From: Salvelinus alpinus
Lineage: Eukaryota > Chordata > Actinopteri > Salmoniformes > Salmonidae
NCBI RefSeq assembly: GCF_045679555.1
Contig: NC_092087.1
Span: 87,828,390-87,892,389, forward strand
Direction of reading: 5' to 3'
DNA length: 64,000 nucleotides
Below the pieces are notes generated by a model, which had not been told where the DNA came from, ran no database searches, and worked only from the letters and a program-made list of their open reading frames with translations. The translations under genes and the position numbers were made by a program. This document shows positions 8,561-63,200 of the stretch, one piece after another. The number at the start of each line of letters is the position of its first letter. Position 1 is the first letter of the stretch.

Positions 8561-8584
8561 CATAAACTCCCACACACACACACT

Positions 8585-10330: not shown

Positions 10331-10375
10331 ATTAAAACACCTGATGTGCTTCATCTAAGCGGGTAAGGAAGTCAG

Positions 10376-10935: not shown

Positions 10936-11254
10936 GAAACCCACTTTACACTGTTAAAATCACATCATTTTTAATCATGTAGTTTGCTAATAAAACAAAA
11001 CTGTCCATAGCCTGCATGTGCTTTCTCACATGCTCACCAATTTCACTTGTTTTATTTGTTGTTGTTGTTTATATAGCACAGTCCTAGCCGACCTCAAACC
11101 AGCTATTTGCTCTCGTGTCTAAGGGGTATTTTTCACCCATTAGTTTGACTGATATGATCTAGGTGTGGATCAGCACATTAGACAGGTCGTCATTGTTATC
11201 ATATTCCAGCCATGACTGGCTACAGCTTACATTTGTTTAGATATAAACATTAGG
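10936..11254. other. No gene recognised
   Basis: No supported open frame; there is a short (TTG)n run near 11057. Confidence 0.5.
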
Positions 11255-13594: not shown

Positions 13595-13602
13595 TGTATA
13601 AG

Positions 13603-14166
13603 CAGCGGTGGGAAAAGTACTTAATTCTCATATTTGAGTAAAAGTTGAAATATCTTAATAGAAAATGATTCAAGTAAAAGTGAAAGTCACCCAGTAAAAT
13701 ACTACTTGAGTAAAAGTCTAAAAGTATTTAGTTTTAAATATACTTCAGTATCAAAAGTAAATGTAATTGATAAAATATACTTAAGTATCAAAAGTAAAAA
13801 TATAAATAATTTCAAATTCCTTATATTAAGCAAACCAGGCGGCACCATTTTCTTGTAAACTCAGTCATCGTTTCCAAACGAATCATGTGTTTAATGAGTC
13901 CGCCAGAACAGAAGCAGTAGGAGGACCAGGGATGTTCTCTTGATAAGTGTGTGAATTGATCCATTTTCCTGTCCTGCTAAGCATTCAAAATGTAACAAGT
14001 ATTTTTGGTTGTCAGGTAAAATGTATGGAGTAGAAAGTACATTATTTTCTTTAAGAACGTAGTGAAGTAAAAGTAGTCAAAAATATAAATAGTTAAGTAC
14101 AGACACACCAAAAACCTACTTAAGTAGTACTTTAAAGTATTTTTACTTATGTACTTTACACCACTG
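13603..14166. mobile_element. 564-bp hAT-like non-autonomous element
   Basis: Its ends are cagcggtgggaaaagtact and ...gtactttacaccactg, inverted copies with the CAG-N-GGTG form usual in hAT elements. The sub-terminal DNA is full of 'agtaaaagt' words. Imperfect 8-bp duplications (tgtataag at 13595 and ggtgtaag at 14167, 6 of 8 matching) fit hAT target-site size. It has no transposase. Confidence 0.85.
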
Positions 14167-14264
14167 GGTGTAAGGTCAGATAGCTCAAGTTTAAAGGAAA
14201 AAACAAGTGAAACGGAATTGTGTCATTTTGACCAAAAGGCATCCATCCTATACAGAGGCTGCTC

Positions 14265-14440
14265 TCCAAATGGTTACAAATGGCATCCTATTCCCTATGT
14301 AGTGCACTACTTTAGACCAGGGCACATATGGCTCTGGTCAAAACTAGTGCACTATATAGGTGATAGGGTGCCATATTGGCCCCGGACAAAAGTAGTGCAC
14401 TACATAGGGAATAGGGTGCCATTTGCGACACATCCAGAGT
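14265..14440. mobile_element. Salmonid palindromic non-autonomous element
   Basis: One arm, 'atggcatcctattccctatg' plus 'tagtgcactactttagacc', is mirrored by 'aaaagtagtgcactacatag' and 'ggaatagggtgccatttgcg'. An extra partial arm lies in the middle (14340-14380). Confidence 0.8.
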
Positions 14441-14517
14441 GTTGCTGCAGTAAAGGATTTAGTTGGTACTGTAACAACAATGTAAAAAGCCTCAGTGATA
14501 CACAGAAACACACATAC

Positions 14518-14797
14518 ACAGATGTAGGATCTTAAATTGATCACTCTTTTGTTGCTGAGAATTTACCTGCACCACAGGAAATGCAGATGAGCTTTGTGAT
14601 GTACATAACTTCACTGAAAGCCCCGCCCTAAAACACAAGATTATATTAACAGTATTGTACTTTTCATGTAGCCTACTTTTGTACAGCTAATAGCCTAACC
14701 ACCGATCCAGCAATATTACGGACAAAACGTTTAAATCCTGTTACTACAGGATTATTTTGCTGTGACAATATAGGTCAAATTACAATCCTACATCTGT
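14518..14797. mobile_element. 280-bp non-autonomous element with inverted ends
   Basis: It begins acagatgtaggatcttaaat and ends aatcctacatctgt. The outer 13 bases pair perfectly and the similarity runs on with mismatches. The 'gatgtaggatctt' end is a common salmonid repeat terminus. Noncoding. Confidence 0.8.
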
Positions 14798-15216
14798 AGC
14801 CTACACACACACATACCAATATGAAACTTCAATGTACAGCAAACTACAGCGGAGGCTAGCATTATATCAGAATGATAAGTAAAGCATGTTTACAGTAATA
14901 GCAAACACAACATTCTTAAAGCTGAAATCCGCACCAGGGGAAACAGCGCCACTGTTCAACCCAGCATATTTGTTAATGTTATTGTTATTGTTTTTGTTGA
15001 GGAGTATCAACAAAACAATTTTGCAGTACATACTCTGCTGTTATATTGTATGTACAATGACGTACAATGGTGTCCAAGGAGAAAAGAACTGTGTACATTG
15101 TTGTTGTAATATCGCAAAAGGATGAGGCAGTTTCACAATGACGGATTCCAGGGATAAAGGGATACTGCAAGATCCTGGTATTTACAATATAATTTATATT
15201 TCTCTGCGTGCAGTAT
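14798..15216. other. No gene recognised
   Basis: AT-rich sequence; short frames on both strands (14886-15125 and 14985-15227) overlap each other and have no protein features. Confidence 0.5.
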
Positions 15217-15221
15217 GAAGG

Positions 15222-15565
15222 TGTCACGACTTCCGCCGAAGTTGGTGCCTCTCCTTGTTCGGGCGGCGTTCGGCGCTCGTCGTCACCGGCTTTCTAGCTT
15301 CCACCGATCCATGTTTCTGTTTTCCATTTGTTATGTCTTGAGTGTACACACCTGGTTCCCATTTAGTTATTATTATTTCCCTATTTAACCCTCTGGTTCC
15401 CATTATGTTTTGTGTGTGTTTGTTCCTGGTTTGTTGTTAGTCTTTTGTGTTAAGGTTAATGATCCCTGCGTGGCTTTATTTTTCCAGAGTAAAGTTCGTT
15501 ATTTTACTCAGTTCTGTGTCCTGCGCCTGACTCCGTTCTCACCTCTGCACAACTAACACCTGACA
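15222..15565 (+). repeat. Solo LTR, same family as the element at 35616-40610
   Basis: It starts tgtcacgacttccgccgaag and ends acacctgaca, the TG...CA form of an LTR. A perfect 5-bp duplication, gaagg, lies on both sides (15217-15221 and 15566-15570). Its start matches the LTR of the Ty3/Gypsy-type element at 40610, and it contains a poly-A region with aataaa-like words. No internal region is present. Confidence 0.92.
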
Positions 15566-15570
15566 GAAGG

Positions 15571-15920
15571 AAGTTAGCGGTGCTTTCGCGAGCCAATGCT
15601 AACTAGCGTTAGCGCAATGACAGGAAGTCTACAGGTACGGTAGCATTGAAGGCTAGTTTACACAGTTGTACATTAAAAAAACTGGTTCCAACTTCTTGTT
15701 TTGTTCAAAACAATTCAAGACAATTTGTGAGAAACAAACTACTTCATAAAAAATATATCTTGGATCCTATAGCATATATGTAGGAACTTGTTTTAAAGTG
15801 TTACTGTAACAATAATATAAACTCTTGATAGTCTTTAGAAAAGCAGCAGGCACTCCTTACACATAAGATATAGACACCATCATCAAACATGCAGTCAGAG
15901 ACACAATAAGAATTAGGTTA
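15571..15920. other. No gene recognised
   Basis: No open frame or repeat recognised. A short near-palindrome, gctaactagcgttagcg, occurs at 15599. Confidence 0.5.
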
Positions 15921-15924
15921 GCAT

Positions 15925-16005
15925 CCTAAATGGAACCCTATTCCCTATATGGTACACTTATTTCGACCGGGGTCCATATAGGGAATAGGGTGCCATTTGG
16001 GACTC
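15925..16005. mobile_element. Short copy of the palindromic element
   Basis: 'aaatggaaccctattccct' and 'agggaatagggtgccatttg' form the two inverted arms around a short centre. Confidence 0.75.
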
Positions 16006-16284
16006 ATATTTACACTATGCAGAACTGTAATGTAGTCACTGAGAAATCACTGGGATGGGTGACTTGTTGGCACCAATTCCCTCCCTGTTGAACAAAATAC
16101 ACCACAGTTTGAGTTTTTACATTTGTGCATTTTGGTTGTTAGCATTGATTGACTAAGAAGCAGTTATTAACATATTATTCATTTATATTGTTGGTCTTAA
16201 AGTGACAGCAGCACAATCATGGGGGATAGATACTGTAGAGGCAGAGAGTAACAGACTGAACAATAAACTATACTATCTGTCTAT

Positions 16285-16470
16285 AGAGATCGGCAGGTAG
16301 CCTAGCGGTTAGCGTATCTCACAGTATCCCTTGCCGAAAGCCGACAAGATGTGCCCTTGAGCAAGGCACTTAACCCTAATTTGCTCCAGGGGTGCTGTAC
16401 TACTATGGCTGACCCTGTAAAACAACACATTACTGCACCTATCCGGTGTATTTGACAATAAAACATCTTA
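16285..16470 (+). mobile_element. tRNA-derived SINE, old
   Basis: The head contains 'ggtagcctagcggttagcg', with TAGCCTAGCGG at 16298-16308 matching the pol III A box. The B box is eroded. 'ccttgagcaaggcacttaac' is the core shared by several fish SINE families, and the tail ends in 'acaataaaac'. It lies just beyond the splice donor of the class II beta transmembrane exon. Confidence 0.75.
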
Positions 16471-16477
16471 TACTCAC

Positions 16478-17903
16478 CATCACCACCAGTGGTCTTCCTC
16501 CTGTTGTAGTAGAGGAGACCAGCTGCAGCGAAGACCAGCCCCAGCACCAGCCCAGATGCCCCGATGGCTATCTTACTCCTCTCAGACCCTGGCAGAGACA
16601 TGTCTGGGATGAAACGTAGTGAGATGAATGTAGTTATAGTTACAGTTGTTTGAAAAACAATACACATCATTAATAACCCAACTTATCAGAGCTCTTTGCT
16701 CCCTTATTTCAACCTTTCCTTACTTCATTGCTTCCTTACTTCCTTGCTTCCTTATTCCCTTCCCCAAACCATTTCCAGTAACACTCAGTTTGTTCCCTGA
16801 CTTCCTTGTCCCCTTTTTCCTAGTTCCCTTGCTTCCTTGTTCCTTTACTTCCTTGTCCCCTTACTTCCTTACCCCAGTGGAGGATCTTTGGTTCAGTGAA
16901 GCTGGCATGCTCCACCATGCAGGAGATCTTCTCTCCAGGTGTGGGAGTGTACTCCAGGTAGGAGTGGATCTGATAGTGCCAGTCGCCATTGGATAGCTCC
17001 TCAGAGGAAGTCATGTTTGAGGTCACTTCCTGTCCGTCCTTCCACCAGGTCACCCTGATCTGTTTGGGGTAGAACTTGTAGGCGCTGCACGTCAACATGG
17101 AGGGGTGTCTGTCACTGTGGGGCGTCATGGACCTCAGATGGACGGAGGGCTCAACTGAGAGGGGAAAATAATAAAATAGTATTCTTTTGTTTTCTACTGC
17201 TTGGTGTTTTCAATGGACAGGTATGTACATGTCCACTAAGGTTGTACATCTATATACGGGTCAGTTCCCTTTCTAGCTTGGGTGTCAATGTGTTCCACCT
17301 ATAAGCTTTAGTAAGTGTACTTTTAGACAGAGTCAATTGAGGTGGCTTGTGTTGTGTCAGACTGATACCCAAGCTAGTTCTCTTTCACTTCCTCAAAACA
17401 ACCTCGGCAAGATTCCACCCTGGGATGGTGCGAGTTAGATAAGAACTGCACAGACAGGTTTCTTTCTGGAAGTTCCCTGACTTGTCAAACCCAAACGTAA
17501 CTCATGTAATAATCAACAAAATGGTGCTTAAAAATAATATTATAAAATTATGATGTGAAATCAATTTTTCCTGAAATATCTTATGCAAATGTGTTTTATT
17601 TTCACCACCGTTCTCCATAGAACTGCTTACCATTGTTGTTTATTCCAGCTTCGTAGGCGAGGGCACCATAATGTTTGCAGAAGAAATGAAGTGGAGTTTG
17701 AAACGATGCCAGGACCACGGGATCTGCTTTAAATTGCTCGGCGATATGTATCCCAAAGGGTGTGTAACCAGTAAATCTATTGAGAGTGCTGTTGTATTCC
17801 ATAACCTTCACCATGTCTGAAATAGCTCTCCAGACGTACTCCACATCGTGTGGATCTTCCCCTCTGTAATAACAAAGGTCGAGGAAGGTCATAAAGTGTC
17901 CAT
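16478..17903 (-). CDS. MHC class II beta chain (leader and last exon not found), probably non-classical
   Basis: Three exons with matching phase-1 splice sites. The beta-1 domain is at 17631-17903 (273 nt, acceptor tctcaccag, donor gtaagc). The beta-2 Ig domain is at 16873-17154 (282 nt). The connecting, transmembrane and cytoplasmic exon is at 16478-16603 (126 nt, SERSKIAIGASGLVLGLVF). All are open. The beta-1 cysteines (LCYY, FFCKH) and beta-2 cysteines (LTCSAY, ISCMVE) are kept, and NST and NMT are possible glycosylation sites. The product would sit in the membrane, pair with a class II alpha chain and present peptides. In classical fish beta chains the conserved peptide-gripping residues lie in EAWNKDP-like and CKHNA-like segments. 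Here these read EQFKADP and CKHYG, so the Trp and Asn seem replaced, which points to a non-classical chain. No signal-peptide exon was seen upstream (to about 19500, now LINE and array DNA) and no terminal exon below 16478, so this could be a partial gene or a recent pseudogene. Confidence 0.85.
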
Positions 17904-18299
17904 CTGGTGAGAAAAAACATGAATGCATGTAAACCTTTATACTCTGCCACATAATAGATATACGTTATTATACAATAATATGCAGTTCTCTTTTATTTGG
18001 CTATAAATAATTACTCTTAATATACAGTATATATTTTTACTATCTCTTTAAAGGGGCAATCTGCAGTTGCTACATCGATTTATTTAGACTTAAATTATAT
18101 ATACCCATGGATTCTTGGAGAATATAACCTATAAATGCCTCACGAGCTCAGTTCAATGGTCGTACCCCATCAGAACCAAAAACATGAGCTTGTTTTACTA
18201 CAATGTAAACTTTGTAAATGTAAACAAGCACTGTGCTCGTGGGTTGCATGTGCGAGTACCGGCTGACTGTACAGAGATTGTGACAGCCGGTTAAATGGC
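17904..18299. other. Upstream side of the beta-1 exon; no leader exon seen
   Basis: I looked on the minus strand for an ATG followed by a hydrophobic stretch and a GT donor in phase 1, and for X/Y boxes. None was convincing. Confidence 0.45.
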
Positions 18300-19410
18300 G
18301 TCCCTTGAGAGGGCAAGAACAAGATGTATGTCAGGAGAAGTGCAGTATTATCATAAGGAGACGTATACTTGGAATAGGGAGGAGGAATGGAGGGCAACAA
18401 CAGAGGCAGAGGAGGTCTAAGAGAGAGGAAGAGGGTGAGCTTGAGTTGGTTGAAGATGGCGGAAAAAAGGGAGATGGTTTGTTAAAGAATGGTAGAAAGT
18501 GTAAACAGAGTGAGCTGTAAGCCGGATCGAAGACAGGAGGAGAAATGGAAGTGAATGAGGGTGAAGTATAGGAGGTGGTAGGTGTGGTGAAGTATAGGAG
18601 ATGGTAGGTGTGGTGAAGTATAGGAGATGGTAGGTGTGGTGAAGTATAGGAGATGGTAGGTGTGGTGAAGTATAGGAGGTGGTAGGTGTGGTGAAGTATA
18701 GGAGGTGGTAGGTGTGGTGAAGTATAGGAGATGGTAGGTGTGGTGAAGTATAGGAGGTGGTAGGTGTGGTGAAGTATAGGAGATGGTAGGTGTGGTGATG
18801 TATAGGAGGTGGTAGGTGTGGTGAAGTATAGGAGATGGTAGGTGTGGTGAAGTATAGGAGATGGTAGGTGTGGTGAAGTATAGGAGATGGTAGGTGTGGT
18901 GAAGTATAGGAGGTGGTAGGTGTGGTGAAGTATAGGAGGTGGTAGGTGTGGTGAAGTTCTCAGAGCCCCCGGCTTGCAACGAGGGTCAGGATAAAGATGC
19001 GTCTGTGACAATAGGAGTGAAGTTGCCTTTTGGCTGATCCATGTGTGGTTTCAGGGTGAAAAACAGAGTTTGGTGCTGTGGAATCGGTGAAGGTAATCAG
19101 AAGGGGTCTTGTGATAATTGTTTGTGTTTCTGCTGGTCAGAGGGAGCGGGAACTCCGCGTTAAATGAATGGGGACAAGAGAGGTGAATTGTTTTGCTCTC
19201 AAGGAACGGGTGCCATTGAGTGGAGTGACTACAGGGGTAGCGGTAAATGTGAAAGTTGAACCAACTGAAGGGGAAGATTCCCGGTATTTGTGATGCTCGT
19301 CGTTTGGTGCGACGCAGACAGGGGGGCGTGAGTGGGGAAACAGAAGAGTTGTTGTCTGTCCTTTTGAGTTTTGATGTTGAGTCTTTGCCCGAAAAAATGA
19401 TGTTAGGATA
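18300..19410 (+). mobile_element. LINE ORF1 (gag-like) fragment split by a 26-bp array
   Basis: Plus-strand pieces before the array (GGKKGDGLLKNGRK, near 18455-18500) and after it (VTTGVAVNVKVE near 19225, PEKMMLGYTV near 19388) match my memory of the N-terminal, pre-zinc-knuckle part of a salmonid LINE ORF1, with a basic, acidic and serine-rich head. Frame changes are present and the zinc knuckles and ORF2 are absent. A Tc1 end follows at 19409. Confidence 0.55.
18564..18957. repeat. 26-bp minisatellite, about 15 copies
   Basis: The unit is gaagtataggagatggtagg followed by tgtggt, with agatgg/aggtgg variants. The period is 26 (atggtagg at 18601, next at 18627). It lies inside the LINE ORF1 fragment, whose pieces flank it. 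The long minus-strand frames across it (HHTYHLLYFTTPT) are by-products of the repeat. Confidence 0.95.
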
Positions 19411-19465
19411 TACAGTACCAGACAATGTTTGGACACACCTACTCATTCAAGGGTTTTTCTTTATT
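19409..19465 (+). mobile_element. Tc1 terminal fragment
   Basis: 'tacagtaccagacaatgttt' followed by 'tcattcaagggtttttcttt' is the left terminal repeat of the Tc1 family seen whole at 27068 and 43800. Only about 55 bases remain. Confidence 0.8.
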
Positions 19466-19765
19466 TTCATGTGCGAAGATGATGGGTGATTGTTGATGGC
19501 TGACAGGCAGTACAATGAACAGAAATCAATCTCATTTGCCAACAAAAATAACAGCTAACGACCGTGCAAAACAATTTCCAAATGTTTTTGGAAACAAGAA
19601 AAAGTCGACAATAAACAGTACCTTCGAATCACCAAAGCATATGAGAATGTCAGAACAGTTCCCACCAGCGGCAGATCACCAGAACTGAAGTGGTAGCAGG
19701 GAAGACAGTGGCAAGCGCTGGAAGAATCAAGGTGAGTGGTGTTTTACTCAACTTTTACTCCGCTA
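19466..19765. other. No gene recognised
   Basis: No supported feature; a possible donor-like 'caaggtgagtgg' at 19728 has no matching exon that I can identify. Confidence 0.4.
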
Positions 19766-20930
19766 ACCTTGGCTTTAGTAGGGTGGTCGACACTCTGCTC
19801 TCCCCAGTCTAACCTTGGCTTTAGTAGGGTGGTCGACACTCTGCTCTCCCCAGTCTAACCTTGGCTTTAGTAGGGTGGTCGACACTCTGCTCTCCCCAGT
19901 CTAACCTTGGCTTTAGTAGGGTGGTCGACACTCTGCTCTCCCCAGTCTAACCTTGGATTTAGTAGGGTGGTCGGCCCTCTGCTCTCCCCAGTCTAACCTT
20001 GTCTTTAGTAGGGTGGTCGGCCCTCTGCTCTCCCCAGTCTAACCTTGGCTTTAGTAGGGTGGTCGACACTCTGCTCTCCCCAGTCTAACCTTGGCTTTAG
20101 TAGGGTGGTCGACACTCTGCTCTCCCCAGTCTAACCTTGGCTTTAGTAGGGTGGTCGACACTCTGCTCTCCCCAGTCTAACCTGGGCTGTAGTATGGTGG
20201 TCGACACTCTGCTCTCCCCAGTCTAACCTTGGCTTTAGTAGGGTGGTCGGCCCTCTGCTCTCCCCAGTCTAACCTTGGCTTTAGTAGGGTGGTCGACACT
20301 CTGCTCTCCCCAGTCTAACCTTGGCTTAGTATAGTGGTCGACACTCTGCTCTCCCCAGTCTAACCTTGGCTTTAGTAGGGTGGTCGACACTCTGCTCTCC
20401 CCAGTCTAACCTTGGCTTTAGTAGGGTGGTCGACACTCTGCTCTCCCCAGTCTAACCTTGGCTTTAGTAGGGTGGTCGACACTCTGCTCTCCCCAGTCTA
20501 ACCTTGGCTTAGTAGGGTGGTCGACACTCTGCTCTCCCCCAGTCTAACCTGGGCTTTAGTAGGGTGGTCGACACTCTGCTCTCCCCAGTCTAACCTTGGC
20601 TTTAGTAGGGTGGTCGACACTCTGCTCTCCCCAGTCTAACCTTGGTTTTAGTAGGGTGGTCGGCCCTCTGCTCTCCCCAGTCTAACCTTGGCTTTAGTAT
20701 GGTGGTCGACACTCTGCTCTCCCCAGTCTAACCTTGGCTTTAGTAGGGTGGTCGACACTCTGCTCTCCCCAGTCTAACCTTGGCTTTAGTATGGTGGTCG
20801 ACACTCTGCTCTCCCCAGTCTAACCTTGACTTTAGTAGGGTGGTCGACACTCTGCTCTCCCCAGTCTAACCTTGGCTTTAGTAGGGTGGTCGACACTCTG
20901 CTCTCCCCAGTCTAACCTTGGCTTTAGCCA
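19766..20930. repeat. 46-bp minisatellite, about 25 copies
   Basis: The unit is accttggctttagtagggtg followed by gtcgacactctgctctccccagtcta. The period is 46 (tccccag at 19801 and 19847). A variant with gtcggccctct recurs in scattered copies. It directly abuts the hAT fragment at 20931 and was probably seeded in or next to it. Confidence 0.95.
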
Positions 20931-21240
20931 TTACAAGGCCCAACTTGCCAGATTGATTAAAGAAGCCCCCCCAATTCATTCACCAGACCCGTTGAATCTC
21001 TTACCAGTGGAGAGGCTACACAGGCAGCCTGCGTAACTACGTTCACACAGTGTGGACCACAGTCACAATACATATCCAGCGGGTTGTTCTCTCCTTCAAA
21101 TGGCTTGCACCCCCTGCAATCGTCCAGCCATGTTTGCGGCACCGTCATAGGTTTGTCCTGGAAGTTGGGACAGAGGAAGGCCTAGACGCATCATCACATC
21201 ACATGCCATCTTGGCTATATTTGCCCTGTCGTTGATGACC
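20931..21240 (-). mobile_element. hAT transposase fragment, central part (ZMYM1-like / TTF-type family)
   Basis: Minus-strand translation gives ANIAKMACDVMMRLGLPL, GQTYDGAANMAGRLQGCKPF and LVRDSTGLVNELGGLL. The G-Q-x-YDGAANM segment and the following H/N-rich block are hallmarks of hAT transposases related to ZMYM1. Between this piece and the one at 22663-23967 part of the gene is lost and an LTR-bearing retroelement is inserted. It is a decayed DNA transposon. Confidence 0.8.
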
Positions 21241-22662
21241 CAGGAATTCTGGAGGCCGTCTCTGGAGGCTCCGGGCTGGAGGCCGTCTCTGGAGGCTCCG
21301 GGCTGGAGGCCGTCTCTGGAGGCTCCGGGCTGGAGGCCGTCTCTGGAGGCTCCGGGCTGGAGGCCGTCTCTGGAGGCGCCGGGCTGGAGGCCGTCTCTGG
21401 AGGCTCCGGGCTGGAGGCCGTCTCTGGAGGCTCCGGGCTGGAGGCCGTCTCTGGAGGCTCCGGGCTGGAGGCCGTCTCTGGAGGCGCCGGGCTGGAGGCC
21501 GTCTCTGGAGGCTCCGGGCTGGAGGCCGTCTCTGGAGGCTCCGGGCTGGAGGCCGTCTCTGGAGGCGCCGGGCTGGAGGCCGTCTCTGGAGGCGCCGGGC
21601 TGGAGGCCGTCTCTTGAGGCTCCGGGCTGGAGGCCGTCTCTGGAGGCGCCGGGCTGGAGGCCGTCTCTGGAGGCGCCGGGCTGGAGGCCGTCTCTGGAGG
21701 CGCCGGGCTGGAGGCCGTCTCTGGAGGCTCCGGGCTGGGCTTAGGCACAGGACTCACCAGGCTGGGGAGACACACAGGAGGCCTCTTCCTTGGCCGAGGC
21801 ACCGGATACACTGGGCCGTGGAGGCGCACTGGCGGTCTCGAGCGCAGAGCTGGCCCCACCCGTTCTGGCTGGATGCCCACTTCCACCCGGCAAATGCGGG
21901 ACGCTGGCACCGAGCACACTGGCCTTTGAATGCTCGGCCGAGACACAGTGCGCATCACCCCATAGCACGGGGCCTGACCAGTCACATGCTCGCCACGGTA
22001 AGCACGGGGAGTTGGCTCAGGTCTCCAACCTGACTCTGCCACACTCCCCGTGTGCCCCCACCCAAAAAAATTTAGTGGCTGCCTCTCGGGCTTCCTTGCC
22101 AGCCGTGTTCCAGTGTAATCCTTGGCCCCTTTCCTAGCTGCCTCCGCCTTCCTGGCTGCCTCCACCTGTTCCCATGGGAGGCGATCCCTTCCAGCCAGGA
22201 TCTCCTCCCATGTGTAGGATCCCTTGCCGTCCAGGATGTCCTCCCATGTCCAGTCCTCTCTTCCACGCTGCTTGGTCCTTTGGTGGTGGGTAGTTCTGTC
22301 ACGGCCGTCAAAGAGAGGAGACCAAGGTGCAGCGTGGGATGCGTACATACTTCTTTATTTAAAGAACGAACACTAAACAAACTAACAAAACAACTAACGA
22401 ACCGTGAAGCTATACAAACATGAGTGCTGACAGGCAACTACACATAGACAACTACCCACAAATACAGGTGGGAAAAGGTAACCTAAGTATGGTTCTCAAT
22501 CAGAGACAACGATAGACAGCTGCCTCTGATTGAGAACCATACCAGACCAAACACATAGAAATAGAAAACACAGGGAAAAAAACATAGAATGCCCACCCCA
22601 ACTCACGCCCTTACCAAACCAAAATAGAGACATAAAAAGCTCTCTACGGTCAGGGCGTGACA
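21241..22662 (-). mobile_element. Partial LTR retroelement in the hAT gene
   Basis: A minus-strand fossil with one LTR at 22297-22662 (starting tgtcacgccctgaccg and ending cggccgtgaca in element sense) and an internal stretch reaching to 21241. The internal part carries a long proline-rich open frame that includes WTWEDILDGKGSYTWEEI and then a 9-residue repeat. I recognise the LTR as a common salmonid Gypsy-like type. The opposite LTR is not present, so the copy is incomplete. Confidence 0.7.
21245..21740. repeat. 27-bp minisatellite inside the retroelement, about 18 copies
   Basis: The unit is ctccgggctggaggccgtct followed by ctggagg, with ctccggg/cgccggg variants. In element sense each unit encodes nine residues (SPEPPETAS or SPAPPETAS) in the frame of the flanking proline-rich sequence. 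Confidence 0.95.
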
Positions 22663-23967
22663 CCACCAGATTCAAAATGGTGTTTTGCATTTGGGGACTG
22701 GTGAAATCAAAGTGACCTTTCAGCCAAGGGGTCAGCTCTGCATCGCCCTCTGCCTTGTTCAGCTCTGCATCGCCCTCTGCCTTGTTCAGCTCTGCATCGC
22801 CCTCTGCCTTGTTCAGCTCTGCATCACCCTCTGCCTTGTTCAGCTCTGCATCACCCTCTGCCTTGTTCAGCTCTGCATCGCCCTCTGCCTTGTACAGCTC
22901 TGCATCGCCCTTTGCCTTGTTCAGCTCTGCATCGCCCTCTGCCTTGTTCAGCTCTGCATCGCCCTCTGCCTTGTTCAGCTCTGCATCGCCCTCTGCCTTG
23001 TTCAGCTCTGCATCGCCCTCGGCCTTGTTCAGCTCTGCATCGCCCTCTGCCTTGTTCAGCTCTGCATCGCCCTCTGCCTTGTTCAGCTCTGCATCGCCCT
23101 CGGCCTTGTTCAGCTCTGCATCGCCCTCGGCCTTGTTCAGCTCTGCATCGCCCTCGGCCTTGTTCAGCTCTGCATCGCCCTCGGCCTTGTTCAGCTCTGC
23201 ATCGCCCTCTGCCTTGTTCAGCTCTGCATCGCCCTCTGCCTTGTTCAGCTCTGCATCGCCCTCTGCCTTGTTCAGCTCTGCATCGCCCTCGGCCTTGTTC
23301 AGCTCTGCATCGCCCTCTGCCTTGTTCAGCTCTGCATCGCCCTCTGCCTTGTTCAGCTCTGCATCGCCCTCTGCCTTGTTCAGCTCTGCATCGCCCTCTG
23401 CCTTGTTCAGCTCTGCATCGCCCTCTGCCTTGTTCAGCTCTGCATCGCCCTCGGCCTTGTTCAGCTCTGCATCGCCCTCTGCCTTGTTCAGCTCTGCATC
23501 GCCCTCTGCCTTGTTCAGCTCTGCATCGCCCTCTGCCTTGTACTTTAGACACTGGCTGAAATTCCCACTCTCCTTATCAACGCCTCAAAAAGCCTGACCT
23601 TGCAGCGCCAAGAACTTCACACCCCCAACAATCTTCATAAGATTTCTCCTCGCGTGTTGCTGCTGTCTTTAAAGCTCACGTGAAAGTTGCACATGAACAG
23701 GCTTTGGCTCCTGAATCCAAGTCATCACAGCTCATTTGTGACACTGGCTGTCTTTATGCGCACTACATTTCTCCAGTGCCTTCTTCCAATTTTGAAAGCC
23801 AGTCTGGACAAAAGCTGAATCTGCTTTTGTCGCAAGCTTAGACTTTTGTGTTGCAAAGTATTTATCACAATAGAAACAGAGGACCCCCTTTAAGGAGGGG
23901 CTGTAATGGAGCCAAGGATGATCTTTAAACCCTTTCTCCTGAAAGTAGAGTGTCCTATTTGATAGGG
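22663..23967 (-). mobile_element. hAT transposase fragment, N-terminal part with an in-frame array
   Basis: The minus strand from 23967 down encodes HPWLHYSPSLKGVLCFYCDK, TGFQNWKKALEKCSAHKDSQ and HK, the TTF-type zinc-finger region of ZMYM1-like hAT transposases. After a few stops come GVKFLALQGQAF and GNFSQCLKY, then the 27-bp array (22738-23548), then LTPWLKGHFDFTSPQMQNTI at about 22720-22665, a known hAT segment. The retroelement insertion begins directly after NTILNLVV. The reading frame is the same on both sides of the array. Confidence 0.8.
22738..23548. repeat. 27-bp minisatellite in frame with the hAT gene, 30 copies
   Basis: The plus-strand unit is gttcagctctgcatcgccct followed by ctgcctt, with a ctcggcctt variant. 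On the minus strand in the transposase frame each unit reads KAEGDAELN, and the frame joins the transposase on either side. Because the period is a multiple of three and units lack stops, several other long frames (such as LCIALCLVQ) are open and meaningless. Confidence 0.95.
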
Positions 23968-46859: not shown

Positions 46860-47890
46860 TACCTTTTGACCCACAATTGCCTCACAATGACCATGGCACT
46901 AAGTTTACCTGTGATAAGTGTGTAACTTTTTACAATGCCCTCGTTAAGCTAAGGCCAGACCAAGTGGATAGGTTGACGCATGAAACACAGACGCAGAGCG
47001 CCTCCCAGCTGTGGCACAATGCAAGGATACTGCGCATCACTGCCAGCACAGCACAACAAACCCAGGAAAATTCTTAAATGAACACTTGCTCCTGGCTTTT
47101 AGAGGGAATTCTGCCACTTGGTACTGCAACAAGGACAAAGGCACACAACTGATGGAAGGCAGAGGATTTGCTGTGGAGAGAAAAGGCCTGGTGGTGCATC
47201 CTGGCCATCCCTGGTCGGCAGCTGGGATTCTGGATCCTGGAAGTGAAATGTGACCTGAGGCTCCAAATCAAATTTTATTGGTCACATACACGTGTTTAGC
47301 AGATGTTATTGCGGGTGTATCGAAATGCTTGTGCTTCTAGTTCCGACAGTGCAGCAATATCTAACAAGTAATATCTAACAATTTCACAACATATACCTAA
47401 TACACACAAATATAGTAAAGGAATGGAATTAAGAATATATAAATACTTGGACGTGCAATGTCAGAGCGGCATAGACTAAGATACAGCAGAATAGTATAGA
47501 ATACAGTATATACATATGAGATGAGTAATGCAAGGTATGTAAACATTATTAAAGTGACATTATTAAAGTGACCACATCACTGAAGGAGTTTTTGACCCAG
47601 TCACGTGGTGACGTCAAGTCACGTGGTGACAACAAACAGTTTGTCATCCTTCCAAATGGGCCAAGTGGATATTACCTCCAGGTCCAGTTGTCCATGTTCT
47701 GTTTGGTCATCTGGACACCTACAGAAGACCTGGACATCCCTTTAATGCAGACTATACACAGGGTCATGTGACACGGTTACATAATTTTTACGTTCTGCAC
47801 ATGCTCCCCAGAATTGTAGATGACTTTGTGGCCAGTAAAATTAAGCTCTGCAGCAAGTACAGCGGGTTAGTAAAGATGCCAGTGAACTAG
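46860..47890 (+). pseudogene. YqaJ-type nuclease fossil
   Basis: Peptide pieces in order: DHGTKFTCDKCVTFYNALVK and LTHETQTQSASQLWHNARIL (46900-47035), then in another frame KFLNEHLLLAFRGNSATW, GRGFAVERKGLVVHPGHPW and GILDPGS (47074-47245), then after a LINE tail LKEFLTQSRG and PSGYYLQVQLSMFC (47580-47690) and DDFVASKIKLCSKYSG (47818-47865). These match the YqaJ/lambda-exonuclease fold proteins found in large numbers in fish genomes: QLWH, a PDG-like core (here disturbed near 47225) and the QVQ motif. Frame changes and loss of the catalytic segment make it dead. Such genes may travel with DNA transposons; I cannot tell which here. Confidence 0.7.
47264..47575 (-). mobile_element. 5'-truncated LINE tail in the YqaJ fossil
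   Basis: Begins caaatcaaattttattggtc on plus, the reverse complement of a LINE end, and runs through 'aggtatgtaaacattattaa'. It separates the two halves of the YqaJ sequence. Confidence 0.8.
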
Positions 47891-47892
47891 AT

Positions 47893-47918
47893 GAAGAGGA
47901 GATGGGGGATGGGCATAA
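47893..47918 (+). repeat. Left target-site duplication of the L2 insertion
   Basis: gaagaggagatgggggatggg plus cataa recurs at 53489-53514 with one or two mismatches, on either side of the L2 LINE. Confidence 0.85.
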
Positions 47919-48143
47919 ACTTCTCAGCCCTCTCCTGTACTCCCTGTTCACCCATGACTGCGTGGCCATGCACACCTCCAACTCAATCATCAAGTTTGCA
48001 GACGACACTACAGTGGTAGGCTTGATTACCAACAACGACGAGACAGCCTACAGGGAGGAGGTGAGGGCACTCGGAGTGTGGTGTCAGGAAAATAACCTCA
48101 CACTCAACATCAACAAAACAAAGGAGATGATCGTGGACTTCAG

Positions 48144-48163
48144 GGGCCTGTTGCACAAAAGTA
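48144..48163 (+). repeat. Left terminal inverted repeat of Harbinger
   Basis: gggcctgttgcacaaaagta; pairs with 52584-52603. Confidence 0.9.
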
Positions 48164-48367
48164 GAATTAAGACATCCGGGATAAATGACTCAGCTGAGCT
48201 CAATGAAGCCAAAACATGTGCGTCCAGGCTTAATTGGTTGCACAAAGACCAAGCCAGGATGAGCAGACACGGATTCATTAAGCCAGGTGAAACCAATCCT
48301 GGATAGGTGCGCGCTCACGGCTCACTCAAATAGACCCCGCCACAGATCACAGATTAACTGATTTACC

Positions 48368-48786
48368 ATGGCAACTAGAGCCGCGTACTTTCCCCCGTCG
48401 GAAGCACAAATCCTCATGGAGGCATACGAGGAGGTAAAATATATAATTAAGAAGAAAGGCAACACCGCCACAGTGATAAAGCAAAGAGAAAAAGCGTGGC
48501 AAAGTATTGCAGACCGCCTGAATGCGTAAGTAGTGCACAATTACACACTCACCGCTCCGCTGAAACATCACAATTACAATTCAAATATTTAATTCACATC
48601 TCCAAAAATGCAGTTGTACTGTAATTATGAAACGGTAAAATTTTTAATTGAAATGCACTGCAGATATGAGTGAAATTGTGTAAAGTAACTCCATCACACT
48701 GTATAAAGCTATGATAATTTTTTTGATATTTTTACTGAAAACAAGACAAAAATACCAAGTAATTTTTTGCAGTGTGACTCCATTAA

Positions 48787-48824
<38 letters not shown>

Positions 48825-49964
48825 TAAACATGAACGGGCCAAAACGGACATGGCAGCAGGTCAAAATCAAATACAAGAACATTCTGCAGAATGGTATGGT
48901 CCCTGACTAATATTTAACAAAGCACAAGCATATATTGTACCCAGAAGGTGCCTGCTCACACATTGTCTGTACTGTTTTAGCAGTGAAAAAGAATACCCAC
49001 AGACAAGGCACGGGTGGTGGGTCACCAAAGGCTGACCTTACCCCAGCAGAGGACATGGCCTTGGAGCTAAATAAAGGCAGGCCCGTCTTAGAGGGGATCC
49101 CTGGGGGGAAAGAGACGAGCATAGGTTCCTCCCAAGATGCCACCCGCTTCATTCAAGGTATGTCCTTCCATCTCTACATGGGATACAACCACATTCATAT
49201 TGAATCAATTTGGACTGTCTGACTTTGGTTTACCTATTGCCTTGCAGTGTCTGGCAGCACTGTGTTCCTGTTAGAGCCACCAGCACAAGCACCAGACGAT
49301 GCTGATCCAGTGAGTACTCCATCAAAGGCATACTGTAGGCCTGGCATGTCTTGTCTACTAGCTTCAATATGAATCCGATTAAATGTGATAGGGTGAAGGC
49401 CCCAGTGCAGCAGCAACAGCACATGATGGAGACGATGATGAGGAGGAGACCATCTCTCTGGATTCCAGAAGGCATGAGGTATCATGTTAAGACTGTGAAA
49501 GTACTATTTACTCTACAATGGTGAGGAGTCCTCATCAAAATCAAAAAATCTAATTTATTTTACAGGACCCAGATGCTATACAGTGGGAAAACCAGCCTGG
49601 CAACATAGTGCGTATTAATAAAAGGACACCACATCCTGCCAAATTCCAGCTGCGCTAATTGTATTGTGTTCACAGAGCTCACAAGCTATCAGAAAGTTGT
49701 ATGGCAACCACCTCCGGCGCCAAATAGAACTGGCAGACATAGACATTCAGTACAAGAAGAAAAAGATGGAAAATCTTGCACTGGAGTCCGAAATAAAAAA
49801 GAGGACAATTAGGAAACTGGACCTTGAAATAAAAAAACTTGAGAGGGAGGTGAGATATGCCTTCAATGTACACTGTATGCTAACTGTAACACAAATGTAT
49901 TAATCATTATTTTTCTTTCCTCCCCCAGCTCCAAGAAGATGACACAGCTCAAAATAAAAATTAG
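48368..49964 (+). CDS. Harbinger Myb/SANT-like DNA-binding partner protein
   Basis: Eight exons with GT/AG sites: 48368-48525, 48823-48893, 48981-49157, 49248-49309, 49392-49478, 49566-49607, 49676-49849, 49929-49964. Together they make 807 nt, an open frame of 268 residues ending NKN-TAG. The N-terminal third is a Myb/SANT-like trihelix (PPSEAQILMEAYEEV, REKAWQSIADRLNA, RTWQQVKIKYKNIL). A linker with acidic residues follows, then a basic, highly charged coiled coil (IELADIDIQYKKKKMENLAL, TIRKLDLEIKKLEREL). In Harbinger elements this protein helps bring the transposase into the nucleus and onto the element ends. The first ATG has the context taccatgg. The second exon follows a (GT)n tract instead of a pyrimidine tract, an unusual acceptor. 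I recognise the protein as an MSANTD4/NAIF1-like family member common in salmonids. Confidence 0.88.
48789..48820. repeat. (GT)16 at the exon 2 acceptor
   Basis: A GT repeat that ends in the AG acceptor at 48821-48822 of the Myb/SANT-like gene, taking the place of the usual pyrimidine tract. Confidence 0.9.
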
Positions 49965-50184
49965 GTATATTCTCGTAAAGTCAAGTGAGCCATGACATAT
50001 GAGCTCTTATTGTGAGCACACAGGACGGTGGCATCTTTCTAAGGTTTTTTTTATTTTCCCAGCAATCAGTACAACCAAGTCATCGTTATAAGGCATCGCC
50101 CTCTTTTGCCCACCCCCCCAGCACCAGGTGTGGCCACTAGCCTATATGAAGGCCCAAAATTGTGTGTTCCTTTCTGCTCTGACA

Positions 50185-51475
50185 ATGGCATGCCCATTCG
50201 TGCGAGATGTGGTGGATGAAGAAGCACTTGTGCTGAGGAGAGCCTTCAGGCGAGAAAGGGTCTTCAGGGACCGGTTGGACCCACTGGCCTTCCCTGATGA
50301 CCATCTATATGAAAGATACAGGTTTTCTGCAGATGGCATCAGGTATCTATGCAGACTACTGGGTCCCAGGATTAAGCACCGCACTGCACGGAGCCATGCA
50401 CTGAGTGTGGAGCAAATGGTTTGTGTGGCCTTGCGCTTTTTTGCTAGTGGAGCCTTCCTGTACTCAGTGGGGGATGCAGAACAGCTGAACAAGGCCACAA
50501 TTTGCCGCACAATAAGGAGTGTGTGTCTGGCTATCAAAGCATTAGCAGATGTCTTCATCTCCTTCCCTGGCCACAGAAGACTCTGTGACATCAAAGAGGA
50601 GTTCTATAGGATTGCAGGTAAGAGGATCTACAAATTACAGGACAACTGTTAACACATAGTAGGATACTCATTACTTTGCGTGACAGGTTTCCCCAATGTC
50701 ATTGGTGCAGTGGACTGCACACACATAAGGATAAAAGCCCCCTCAGGTGCCCATGAGGCCGATTTTGTGAATAGGAAATCCTTTCACAGCATTAATGTTC
50801 AGGTGAACATAACTTTTTGATATTGTCCATTGACGAACACTCTGCATTGCCAGTGATGTGCATTGATTGGTGTAATATTCCTCATCTTATGATTTCAGAT
50901 GGTCTGCAATGCTGACTGTGTGATCAGCAATGTTGTGGCAAAATGGCCTGGCTCAGTCCATGACTCCAGAATCTTTCGGGCCTCTGAAATCTATCAGTGC
51001 CTATCACAAGGTAAGCCACACAACCCCTATTTATAACCATCATGGCTGTGTCAAGAATATCACTGTGTTTATGAGGTAGTAATGATGAGATTTTGTGTTG
51101 ACAGGTGAATTCTCTGGTGTGTTGCTGGGAGACAGGGGGTATGGCTGCCAGCCTTTTCTCCTGACACCTTTCACAGACCCCCAGGAAGCACAGCAGGCCT
51201 ACAACCATGCCCATGCCAGGACCAGGGCCAGAGTTGAAATGACCTTTGGCCTCCTGAAGGCACGCTTTCACTGCCTTCACAAATTAAGGGTCAGCCCTGT
51301 TAGGGCATGTGATATTACTGTGGCTTGTGCTGTCCTCCACAATGTGGCCTGCCTGAGGAAGGAGAGGGCCCCCAGAGTGCCACCAGCCATGGACTGGGAC
51401 AATCCGGCAATCTTCCCTGATGACGACAGTGGTCGGCTGCTGAGGGACCAATATGTGTTGAATTATTTTAGTTAG
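50185..51475 (+). CDS. HARBI1-like Harbinger transposase
   Basis: Four exons: 50185-50617, 50687-50802, 50899-51010, 51105-51475, all with GT/AG sites, joining to an open frame of 343 residues from [10 protein letters not shown] (HARBI1 is about 350). Upstream in-frame ATGs at 50128 and 50146 would add 19 or 13 residues and cannot be excluded. The N-terminal half is a helical DNA-binding region ([38 protein letters not shown]). The DDE nuclease follows: [15 protein letters not shown] (first Asp), [12 protein letters not shown] (second Asp), [17 protein letters not shown], and [15 protein letters not shown] (Glu). All three catalytic positions are kept. It would cut and join the element ends in the nucleus with the partner protein encoded just upstream. 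Confidence 0.9.
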
Positions 51476-51832
51476 TATGTGTGCTTTCAATTTTGGTTAA
51501 ATATGTCCTGCGGTGGCAGAGGAATTTGGGTTTTTTTGGGTTCGTTTTTTGACGAATTTGGCCTCTTATGATGTTTGTGCGGTATACTGTGTGTAATACA
51601 AGGCTGCAGGGAGGCTACTGCATCCATTCATTTGTCTGTTCAGTTGATGTGTATGGATTTGTCCTGCATTTATTTTAGTGTGCAGACATGCAGGGTGTGT
51701 TATATACAGACCTTTGAATGTGTATGTATCATTTTGTATAATATGCTTGGATTCTGTGCTTTCCATCTTGTAGAGTCACTGTGACTTCAGTTTCGAAAGG
51801 AGCTGATGGTTTACCTGCTTTGTTTTGTCCTT

Positions 51833-51850
51833 ATTCAATAAAGGAACATA
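51833..51850 (+). terminator. Polyadenylation signal after the transposase
   Basis: ttcaataaaggaacataa contains AATAAA at about 51838, about 360 bases past the transposase stop. Confidence 0.5.
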
Positions 51851-52583
51851 ATGTTACACATTGTGTTTTTATATTCATATGGAATGTGTATTTGTTTATA
51901 TGACAGAGTACTAGGGCCACACTGAAGAAAAAGGATAAAGTCATAAATTTATGAGGCTGGTTCTTTCTGCAGAAAAGCTACATATTGTTTTTACAGTTTT
52001 GATACTTATGACAATGTGATACTTAATATTCTGGCACATCAGCATGTCTTTGTTTATGAAACCATACTGAAGTACAATTTCACGAAATGCCCCACATCTG
52101 TCATTTTAACAACTGTCCTCCTTTAAAACAACTGGTTACAATATTATGACTTGTGTTTTTTTCCCCTCTGTGGCCCTAATATTCTATCATTTTATATATA
52201 GCCTTATAGTCTATGGGAAACTGTAAATTATCTAATGATAGCAACATCATCTAAAAATCATTTTTTATCCAAAATCATTGAAATTAATGATCACAAACGT
52301 TTAAATAATAACAGTGGGTCTAGTTATATGTGATAACAATGTATAGTGAGCAGTGAAATAACTATTGGTTTCCATTTGTGGTGACTGCTGACTGACATTA
52401 GGGATGAGATTAAATAGATCCTGGAATTTAGCCTGGTCTGGAGCAGGCTAGCTCCACAGAATAAATCTCCATGGTAATTTATACCATAACATATCCTCCT
52501 GCCCCCTATCCATCTTTAGTGCAACCGGATTACGGATCAATTGAGCCAGGATCACCAAGATATCCTGGCTTAATCCCTTATCC

Positions 52584-52603
52584 TAGTTTTGTGCAACAGG
52601 CCC
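52584..52603 (-). repeat. Right terminal inverted repeat of Harbinger
   Basis: tagttttgtgcaacaggccc; reverse complement gggcctgttgcacaaaacta matches the left end in the first 17 bases. Confidence 0.9.
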
Positions 52604-53488
52604 CAGGATACAGAAGAGGGCGCACCCCCCTATCCACATCAAAAGGACAGTAGTGGAGAATTTTAAGTTCCTCGGCGTACACATCACGGCAAACTGAAAT
52701 GGTCCACCCACACAGACAGTGTGTGCGCAACAGCGCCTCTTCAACCTCAGGAGGCTGAAGAAATGTGGCTTGTCACAGAAAACACTCACAAACTTTTACA
52801 GATGAACAATCGAGAGCATTTTGTCGGGCTGTATCACCGTCTGGTACGGCAACTGCTCCGCCCACAACCGTAAGGCTCTCCAGAGGGTAGTGAGGTCTGC
52901 ACAACGCATCACCGGGGGCAAACTACCTGCCCTCCAGGACACCTACACCACCCGATGTCACAGGAAGGCCAAAAAGATCATCAAGGACAACAACCACCCG
53001 AGCCACTGCCTGTTCACCCCGCTATCATCCAGAAGGCGAGGTCAGTACAGGTGCATCAAAGCTGGGACCGAGAGACTGAAAAACAGCCATCACTAACATT
53101 GAGTGGCTGCTGCCAACATACTGACTCAAATCTCTAGCCACTTTATTAAAAAAATGGATGTAATAAATGTATCACTAGTCACTTTAACCAATTCCAATTT
53201 ATATAATGTTTACATACCCTACATTACGTATAGGGTATATATGTATATACTGTACTCTATACCATCTACTGCATCTTGCCTATGCTGTTCGGCCATCGCT
53301 CATCCATATATTTATATGTACATATTCTTATTCATTCCTTTACACTTGTGTGTAAAAGGTAGTTGTTGTGAAATTGTTAGATTACTTAGATATTACTGCA
53401 TGGTCAGAACTAGAAGCACAAGCATTTTGCTACACTCACATTAACATCTGCTAACCATGTGTATGTGACCAATAAAATTAGATTTGAT

Positions 53489-60200: not shown

Positions 60201-63200
60201 GCGTTAACTAGGGAATATCATGTTTCCAAGTGGGGTCCCCTGCATTTTCTAGTGTCCATTTGGAGTCGTGTGCAGAAAAACTCCTGGTTTACAGTAACTT
60301 GTCCAATTAGAAACAGAAATGAGAGATGCCAGTTGTATTATTTTTAATTAATTCAATTTATTTCAGAAATGAATGACATTTGTTTTTCAGACTAGGAGCA
60401 GACTGGATGAGGAGAGTGAGTCCACGTTGTTGACAGCTCTAACAGAGATACTGGACAGTGTTGACGATGAGACCCTGTCTCCCTTTGACACCCTGCCTGA
60501 AACTGGGCTCTTCTCTGACCAGAGGCTACGGGACAACTCACCGGTGGGTAAAACCAAGTGTGGGTCTGTGTGTGTGATTCAGAGTAACCAGCAGTCCTAC
60601 TCTGAGACGCTGTGTGAATACAGTCCCAGGTGTTGTTGATTTGATGACAATCAGGGGTACTGCTTTTATTTTGGTTTTATCTGGAAGTCATGGTGAAAAT
60701 GGTGTCTGTGGGAGGACGTGATTGTTGTTTTGTAATTACTGTATTTCTCCTGTTTGGTGTGTTTCTCCAGTTGAGGCGGCTGCTGAGTTTCACACGGTCT
60801 CCACCTGATAAAGAAGCACTCTTTCGTTCCATAAAGACCCCCTCTTCATCTTCATCCCCCTCTTCCTCTGTTGGAAAGGTAGAAACCTCATCCCTTTCTG
60901 TTTTATGGAAGTGTGTGTGTGTCAGATTAAAATTAGCCGTACTACTACTGGTAATCCCACCCGTTAATCTAGGTTTACAGAGGTCATTTCAATGATAAAA
61001 GAACCACTAGAAGAGTGCTCTCCAACCCTGTTCCTGGAAGCTATCCTCCTGTAGGTATTCACTCCAACCCTGTTCCTGGAAGCTATCCTCCTGTAGGTAT
61101 TCACTCCAACCCTGTTCCTGTAAGCTACCCTCCTGTAGGTTTTCACTCCAACCCTGTTCCTGGAAGCTGCCCTCCTGTAGGTTTTCACTCCAACCCTGTT
61201 CCTGGAAGCTATCCTCCTGTAGGTTTTCACTCCAATCCTGTTCCTGGAAGCAACCCTCCTGTAGGTATTCACTCCAACCCTGTTCCTGGAAGCTATCCTC
61301 CTGTAGGTTTTCACTCCAACCCTGTTTCCTGAAGCAACCCTCCTGTAGGTTTTCACTCCAACCCTGTTCCTGGAAGCTATCCTCCTGTAGGTTTTCACGC
61401 CAACCCTGTTCCTGGAAGCTATCCTCCTGTAGGTTTTCACTCCAACCCTGTTCCTGGAAGCAACCCTTCTGTAGGTTTTCACTCCAACCCTGTTCCTGGA
61501 AGCAACCCTTCTGTAGGTTTTCACTCCAATCCTGTTCCTGGAAGCAACCCTCCTGTAGGTTTTCACTCCAATCCTGTTCCTGGAAGCAACCCTCCTGTAG
61601 GTTTTCACTCCAACCCTGTTCCTGGAAGCAACCCTTCTGTAGGTTTTCACTCCAATCCTGTTCCTGGAAGCAACCCTCCTGTAGGTTTTCACTCCAATCC
61701 TGTTCCTGGAAGCAACCCTCCTGTAGGTTTTCACTCCAACCCTGTTCCTGGAAGCTATCCTCCTGTAGGTTTTCACTCCAATCCTATTTGTAACTAACCT
61801 GGGGTGTATTTATTACGTCTTGCAACGGAAACCGTTTACTGTTTAAGAAGCAAACATAATGAAACGGGGAGGGTCCTACTTGAATTTGTCCAATAGAAAC
61901 TCGCTCTGCCTACAAGAAAATCTCTTGCACAGTTCGTTTTGTATACTAAGTCTTGCGTAGTTGGTTTTGTATACTAAGTCTTGCGTAGTTCGTTTTGCAT
62001 ACTAAGTCTTGCGTAGTTCGTTTTGCATACTAAGTCTTGCGTAGTTCGTTTTGCATACTAAGTCTTGCGTAGTTCGTTTAGCATACTAAGTCTTGCGTAG
62101 TTCGTTTTGTATACTAAGTCTTGCGTAGTTCGTTTTGTTTCGGTATGTTGCATTGAAAGGGGCTAACATTTCGTTGATTCGATCCCAATTCCCACAGTAG
62201 AGGGAAACGTTGATAGTGTTAACTAACGGGGGAAACTAGAAAGTCGAGTGAGGTTCAGTCTCATGCTTCTCTGCGCGGGCTGATATTTAATCTGCGTGGC
62301 AGTCCGAGGCGAGCTGCGCCCCCACGCATGCACCGTCACGCAAAGAAAATAATTCTGTCGAGGGGCACTTTGAAGATGCTGGAACAGTCAACATTTACTT
62401 TTCCTCTGCAAACAAAACAAGTTACGAATAGAAAAATCGGACAACCCCATTGTAGAATTATCTATTTCTATGCAAGATAAATATTCCTCTCGAGGCACAT
62501 TCACGTTATGAGTACCATAGGAAGAGCCCTGCGCTGGAGTAACTTGTTTGATTTCAAATAAGAAAAACGGTTAAAGATTTACATTCGTTTTAATGTACTA
62601 AATAAAATGTCTATCATAATGAATTTGACATACATTAGTATGGGATTGGGTTGTGTCATAGTTTGGAAATCATATACAAAAAATATTAGTGTACTAGACT
62701 ATGGGATTGAGTTTGTCATGAAAAATATTACAGAGAATGATATCTTTATTAAAAATAGAGAAATGGCGAGCACGATTATGAGCATAGCTGGCTCTGCTGG
62801 AATAACAGTCTTGACGTCATTCTTCCTTACAGGTTGAGACAGTCATTACTGACAGACCCAGGAGGGCTAGGCTAACTCCCAGAGCCCAGGGCTCTTCCAC
62901 ATCCATACAGAGGAGCGATGGAGAGGTCCACATTCACAGTCCGCCTCGGGGCTTCAATCTGACCAATCAGGACTCGGGAAAACTTTTCCTTGACCAATCA
63001 GAAGTCAGAGCGCTGAACTCTGTAGAGAAGGACCATGGCTACTCCTCTACAGTGTCCCTGGTGGACCTGGTGAAACTCATGCACCCCTACTGCCTGAGGG
63101 TGTGCCTGGATGAGGAGGAGAAGGACTGGGTCGGCACATCCAGGCAGGAGGCCTCCTCCCTGGGGGAACGGAGCGCGGACCAGAGAGTACCCCTGGAGGG

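Follow-up and report, generated by a model that had tools for sequence, protein, structure and literature searches.

A very probably young, high-copy family of autonomous-type PIF/Harbinger transposons in Salvelinus alpinus

Described Harbinger systems and the element in the window

In vertebrates, Harbinger transposons are described as requiring both of their proteins, excising precisely and preferring a 15-bp target (PMC2836001). The zebrafish element Harbinger3_DR, a reconstructed active vertebrate Harbinger, combines a transposase with a Myb-like protein, a 3-bp duplication and an extended 15-bp target (PMC2836001, PMC9710019), and its Myb-like protein is described as binding a subterminal motif of 9 bp and carrying the transposase into the nucleus (PMC9710019). 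The Ping/Pong/mPing system of rice likewise features two required proteins and a 3-bp duplication with a free middle base (PMC2836001, PMC4561436), and a staggered 5′ cut at the duplication has been proposed for mPing (PMC4561436). Harbinger-Snek of sea kraits is reported to have expanded recently and explosively, leaving hundreds of intact copies, including 269 in Laticauda colubrina (PMC8437027), and the salmonid family Harbinger-1_OK of coho salmon is given as 97-99% alike among the salmonids tested, with a likely transfer to carp (PMC9179366). Here we analyze a stretch of 64,000 nucleotides from the genome of Salvelinus alpinus (contig NC_092087.1, positions 87,828,390 to 87,892,389; hereafter the window), in which a complete-looking element of 4460 bp at 48144-52603 is, as judged from sequence, very probably an autonomous-type PIF/Harbinger transposon and a member of a young, high-copy family.

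The element is bounded by short terminal inverted repeats, perfect over their outer 17 bp and paired at 22 of the outer 25 bases, and it is flanked on each side by a 3-bp target-site duplication, CAG. Excising the element together with one CAG renders the reading frame of a long interspersed nuclear element (LINE) continuous across the joint; the LINE reverse transcriptase domain (PF00078, RVT_1, E 3.5e-7, frame 47845-48306) lies directly 5′ of the element, and the interrupted LINE is already broken by stops elsewhere in the joined frame. Two genes, both open under predicted splicing, are found between the termini. The first (ATG 48368, eight exons, seven of seven introns GT-AG) codes for a 268-residue protein of the Myb/SANT/MADF-like type (PF13873, Myb_DNA-bind_5, E 9.6e-15), and the second (ATG 50185, four exons, GT-AG introns) for a 343-residue DDE transposase of the DDE_Tnp_4/HARBI1 type, which matches the whole 158-position profile of PF13359 (E 2.2e-38). 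A further in-frame ATG upstream, near 50146, makes the start of the transposase uncertain. D154, D205, D230 and E265 are all found in the transposase as candidate catalytic residues, with E265 probably being the catalytic glutamate, and the window copy of this protein is identical to the majority protein of the copies compared below. These results bear out the initial annotation of a complete-looking PIF/Harbinger element with paired termini, a CAG duplication that restores the LINE and unbroken genes of eight and four exons; its statement that the D, D and E are in place stands as regards the presence of the residues, whereas the identity of the catalytic aspartates is at the level of candidates.

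E265 is lost in two natural copies (L017 and L041), by a stop in one and by E265K in the other; these may have been moved by the proteins of other copies or altered after insertion. Pattern searches for relatives of the transposase returned three matches in viral contigs and 41 in bacterial and archaeal genomes, none of which was confirmed, and no solved structure matched it by sequence at E up to 1.

Copy number, integrity and age of the family

When the genome to which the window belongs (2.37 Gb, 928 contigs) was searched with the first 67 bp of the element, 774 exact matches (378 + 396) were recovered; the reversed pattern gave none, so these are not chance matches. YNG followed by the first 32 bases matched 783 times and the last 32 bases followed by YNG 778 times, with zero matches for the controls. 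Of 100 listed 3′ ends, 91 were retained for pairing (the last nine, one on C2 and eight on C3, lie past the end of the 5′ list); set against the first 100 listed 5′ ends, on the two contigs C1 and C2, they gave 89 pairs, of which 75 span 4350-4600 bp, ten are longer and four are shorter; 11 5′ ends and three 3′ ends lacked a listed partner. None of these 89 pairs on C1 and C2, whose ends share 32 bp exactly, is below 3 kb, whereas a Tourist-type burst of miniature inverted-repeat transposable elements would be expected to show many such short copies; short forms keeping fewer than 32 end bases would escape such a search. Since 75 of the 89 pairs fall in the full-length class, and none below 3 kb, the burst on C1 and C2 was carried by full-size elements. 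Harbinger-Snek is similar in its recent expansion with hundreds of copies, but is described as having many single-gene and short non-autonomous forms (PMC8437027); in the rice system, as described, it is the short mPing that carries the burst and TWA that is duplicated, in contrast to the full element and CNG here. If nearly all 774 copies were full length, they would amount to ~3.5 Mb or 0.15% of the genome, about the top of the range of 0.002-0.14% that a teleost survey gives for all Harbinger-like DNA (PMC9179366). The salmonid Harbinger literature, as represented by titles and the openings of abstracts and with subscription journals mostly outside the search, describes no such burst; Harbinger-1_OK, compared by description only, may equal this family or be close to it.

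We fetched 40 loci from the exact 67-bp 5′-end matches (all 32 listed on C1 and the first eight on C2), of which 37 had both ends; with the window copy, 38 copies were compared, a (TG)n stretch (48788..48820) being excluded from the divergence counts. Their mean distance from the majority base is 0.107% (95% interval 0.089-0.127) and their mean pairwise difference 0.203%. A copy carries 4.7 changes on average, ~3 of them private, and 114 of the 127 distinct changes are private, a star-like pattern that speaks against old, shared substitutions, the finding by which the initial annotation's proposal of recent movement was to be refuted. The same figures, together with the 774 exact 5′ ends, supply the many near-identical copies that it had asked for. 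The mutation rate for such fish is ~2-4e-9 per site and year, at which the burst would date to about 0.27-0.54 million years ago. Both genes are open in 26 of the 38 copies (Myb in 31, transposase in 30), and both proteins equal the majority in seven fetched copies. What had implicitly been taken for a lone intact survivor among wrecks is hence better described as one unexceptional copy within a large and young family. The ratio of nonsynonymous to synonymous polymorphism (pN/pS) is 0.52 for Myb (26 changes) and 0.33 for the transposase (21 changes), and values below 1 on such small counts weakly suggest some selection or history. We infer that the family amplified as full-size elements in roughly the last few hundred thousand years, and it may still move.

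Several observations weigh against this picture. Three of the 40 fetched loci have no 3′ end in the fetched stretch, at least one gene is broken in 12 of the 38 copies, and the choice of copies by an exact 67-bp end on C1 and the start of C2 leans mildly towards young ones, while the age depends on mutation rates taken from general background. All four combinations are seen at nine of 15 pairs of shared sites outside homopolymers, suggesting that the copies recombine or convert each other, or that the same changes recur; such sequence exchange can make a family appear younger. As for the window copy, its Myb protein carries S9P, which is private, and D25Y, which is present in six of the 38 copies (itself included), both within the Myb/SANT domain, and it scores 54.7 bits against PF13873 versus 59.1 bits for the majority protein. 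These two changes may weaken the protein, and the activity of this particular copy is therefore uncertain; a working Myb protein could come in trans from other copies, and the evidence for activity is stronger from the family than from the window copy.

Were these old copies homogenised by gene conversion, the family would merely look young, and the four combinations at shared sites, whether from exchange or recurrent mutation, could be read in this way. We regard this as quite improbable, given that so many of the changes are private and that the duplications, which lie outside the element, have no aged changes: in 36 readable pairs the only differences are six at the middle base, the other 30 pairs being identical. 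Mutation at the element's own rate would give ~0.5 changes in the 75 duplication pairs of the full-length class, but that rate presumes the young age, so the weight is on the unchanged outer bases. A rise in copy number mainly through host duplication of element-bearing DNA, rather than transposition, is very improbable, even though local instances are evident: head-to-tail copies at C2:107.127-107.141 Mb have an identical 50-bp spacer at three junctions, L092-L095 (C2:108.1-108.9 Mb) have common 3′ flanks (75-77 of 77 bases, one pair 105/105), as do L099 and L101 (125/125), the latter two groups in a region with one flank sequence repeated at 32 or more places among the matches listed, and nine neighbor gaps of at most 13 kb are observed against 0.5 expected for the 94 copies on C1 and C2. 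By position, however, ~17 of these 94 fall in clusters; the 38 compared copies mostly have flanks that differ from locus to locus, and their matched duplications, together with a target consensus, are the signature of separate insertions. Finally, a domesticated host gene pair of the HARBI1/NAIF1 kind would account for two open frames with pN/pS below 1, but would be expected to be single-copy and devoid of terminal repeats and duplications; with perfect ends, hundreds of end copies, duplications wherever examined and 12 of 38 copies broken, the locus is almost certainly not such a pair.

Local hopping was considered for the nine close gaps and dropped, because the copies lying closest together form a tandem array whose spacer is identical throughout and because other clustered copies, L092-L095 and L099/L101, have long 3′ flanks in common. 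The tandem array (L049-L052, C2:107126900-107141000) has a 50-bp spacer of the form CAG...CTG that the outer flank resembles, as if a minisatellite unit and the element had been amplified together. More broadly, C2:101-115 Mb is a heavily duplicated region, with the recurring flank spread over ~14 Mb at 93-98% identity among the matches listed, and some of the Harbinger copies there have common 3′ flanks. L090 and L100 agree in the first nine flank bases and match at 55 of 107 ungapped positions, and are not shown to be duplicates.

Target sites and mismatched duplications

The insertions prefer a palindrome near GACCWGGTC. Over 36 sites, the symmetrised consensus is approximately CAGACCWGGTCTG, strongest at CCWGG; its symmetry is imposed by the symmetrising, but the preference beyond 3 bp is not. 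The target of Harbinger3_DR contains CACCWGGT, which resembles the one found here. L045, L024, L015 and the copy at C2:63.78 Mb sit at about the same position in related copies of another repeat, one of them in reverse orientation; this resembles a site that is targeted repeatedly.

At the 37 two-ended fetched loci the one remaining duplication pair, beyond the 36 readable ones, could not be read. Among the 75 pairs of the 4350-4600 bp class, 64 have identical duplications and 11 are mismatched, every mismatch being at the middle base (5′/3′: CAG/CTG in four, CTG/CAG in five, CAG/CGG and CCG/CAG in one each). The YNG patterns used for these pairs fix Y first and G last, so that outer-base changes are not fully visible; the 36 readable copies, largely contained in the 75, are free of this condition. 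When the 3′ side was left unrestricted at 56 further junctions, 39 were scorable, with 35 identical and four mismatched at the middle base. Among the 75 pairs are duplicates (L092-L095, L099/L101 and the tandem array), so the number of separate insertions is smaller. Five of the 14 pairs of other lengths are also mismatched at the middle base, but these are perhaps mispaired or rearranged and were not counted; L075 (CCG/CAG), within a nested tangle, is likewise outside the 75. Point mutation was rejected as the cause of the mismatches, with 11 seen against the half change expected. In a literature search for published mismatched Harbinger duplications, only PMC4561436 was found, where the mismatches are engineered.

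The flanks of individual mismatched copies are informative in this regard. Those of L022 are colinear at one element-free related place (C36:5701498-5701716, 70% identity), which lacks ~40 bases at the joint, leaving the target base unreadable there. The joined flanks of L048 are contiguous at six, and those of the copy at C2:112.75 Mb at 34, of the 40 matches listed. L048 has the duplications CAG/CGG, and its element-free target reads CAG in five of the six places read and AAG in one; the copy at C2:112.75 Mb has CCG/CAG, and its element-free target reads CAG in six of six. Since the element-free relatives read CAG, each copy has one duplication that equals the target and one whose middle base is foreign, the latter on the 3′ side at L048 and on the 5′ side at C2:112.75 Mb. 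At C2:63.78 Mb the two flanks together make up a single repeat, into which three other fetched copies have inserted at nearly the same position. Thus, with flanks that belong together, chimeric assembly joins are unlikely as the sole cause at L022, L048, C2:112.75 and C2:63.78. Rearrangement or misjoining is still kept for L026/L027 (C1:61.63 Mb), whose 5′ ends face each other 757 bp apart in opposite orientation and whose duplications are mismatched in a reciprocal manner that an inversion between the two copies would account for, and for two tandem-array copies, where the spacer starts with CAG and ends with CTG. L019 and L025 are also among the 11, the joined flanks of L025 having no match among the 40 listed. 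The mismatch at C2:106.69 lies within a minisatellite holding both A and T units.

By analogy with the studied relatives, the Myb/SANT protein would bind the element ends, perhaps at repeated subterminal words, and bring the transposase to the nucleus and to those ends; the transposase would cut with a 3-nt 5′ stagger at the duplications, and the element would be inserted at GACCWGGTC-like sites with duplication of CNG. Because the cut proposed for mPing leaves 3-nt 5′ overhangs from the duplication (PMC4561436), we tentatively raise the idea, which we hold to be somewhat short of probable, that the 3-nt CNG overhang of the donor site is carried to the new site and sometimes kept, such that middle-base mismatches record the previous address. 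An excised overhang that pairs with a target whose middle base is different could leave one target-like and one foreign duplication. The mismatches could, with close to an even chance, instead arise after insertion, by a gene conversion tract running just past the element edge or by recombination between copies. Such conversion predicts nearly the same pattern, the copies show signs of exchange, and the flank evidence is silent on a tract that ends within the duplication. In favor of an origin after insertion are also the reciprocal pair L026/L027, for which an inversion would account, the location of two mismatches in the tandem array and that of another in the minisatellite, and an assembly gap at the duplication of L038 makes misjoins near copies possible. 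Against this, chimeric flanks are unlikely at the four loci named above, with the caveat that L048, C2:112.75 and C2:63.78 would look no different after an exchange between elements occupying equivalent positions in two copies of a repeat; moreover, rearrangement as the cause of 11 in 75 would need an estimated quarter or so of the copies to have swapped flanks. Between overhang retention and terminal gene conversion the balance is about even. If overhang retention is true, integration would partly bypass gap-filling DNA synthesis, as piggyBac integration does, and the hundreds of fresh copies would allow a statistical reading of the previous-site base.

Features of the window copy and significance for Harbinger biology

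The coordinates of the element and its flanks are given in Table 1. Three occurrences of the 8-mer AAGCCAGG fall within the outer 474 bp (both ends summed) and none in the interior, although the word was picked among many. Such words would fit subterminal binding sites as in Harbinger3_DR, for which subterminal binding of the Myb-like protein is described (PMC9710019), whereas those seen here are candidates. No second copy of the element is found elsewhere in the window (E 1e-5). Minisatellite arrays are abundant in the window at 6102-23541 and 61020-62137, with units of 26-46 bp in up to 42 copies.

Table 1. Features of the Harbinger element and the adjoining LINE, in window positions
Feature	Positions	Strand	Remarks
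LINE reverse-transcriptase frame, upstream half	47845..48143	+	RVT_1 E 3.5e-7; interrupted, already broken
Left target-site duplication CAG	48141..48143	+	joining across restores LINE frame
5′ terminal inverted repeat	48144..48160	+	17 bp perfect; 22/25 bp paired out to 48168
5′ subterminal region	48224..48287	.	words AGCCWGG and GGCTTAAT, both strands; candidate sites of Myb-protein binding
Myb/SANT exon 1	48368..48525	+	ATG at 48368
(TG)n microsatellite	48788..48820	+	Myb intron 1
Myb/SANT exon 2	48823..48893	+	
Myb/SANT exon 3	48981..49157	+	
Myb/SANT exon 4	49248..49309	+	
Myb/SANT exon 5	49392..49478	+	
Myb/SANT exon 6	49566..49607	+	
Myb/SANT exon 7	49676..49849	+	
Myb/SANT exon 8	49929..49964	+	with stop
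Transposase exon 1	50185..50617	+	ATG 50185; in-frame ATG also near 50146
Transposase exon 2	50687..50802	+	D154; PF13359
Transposase exon 3	50899..51010	+	D205
Transposase exon 4	51105..51475	+	D230, E265 and stop
AATAAA	51837..51842	+	possible polyadenylation signal, 3′ of transposase gene
3′ subterminal region	52544..52574	.	AGCCAGG words in both orientations and one GGCTTAAT word; mirrors 5′ side
3′ terminal inverted repeat	52587..52603	-	17 bp perfect
Right target-site duplication CAG	52604..52606	+	
LINE frame, downstream half	52607..53096	+	joined-frame reading

The active vertebrate Harbinger has so far been one reconstructed in the laboratory, and the present family, set beside Harbinger3_DR by description only, offers natural copies with both genes open and thus a natural, possibly still active example. 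Natural activity can be tested directly with unmodified copies and population data, because the near-identical natural copies number in the hundreds and both genes are open in the majority of those examined. The full-size burst and the middle-base mismatches inform how Harbinger elements spread and how their insertions get repaired.

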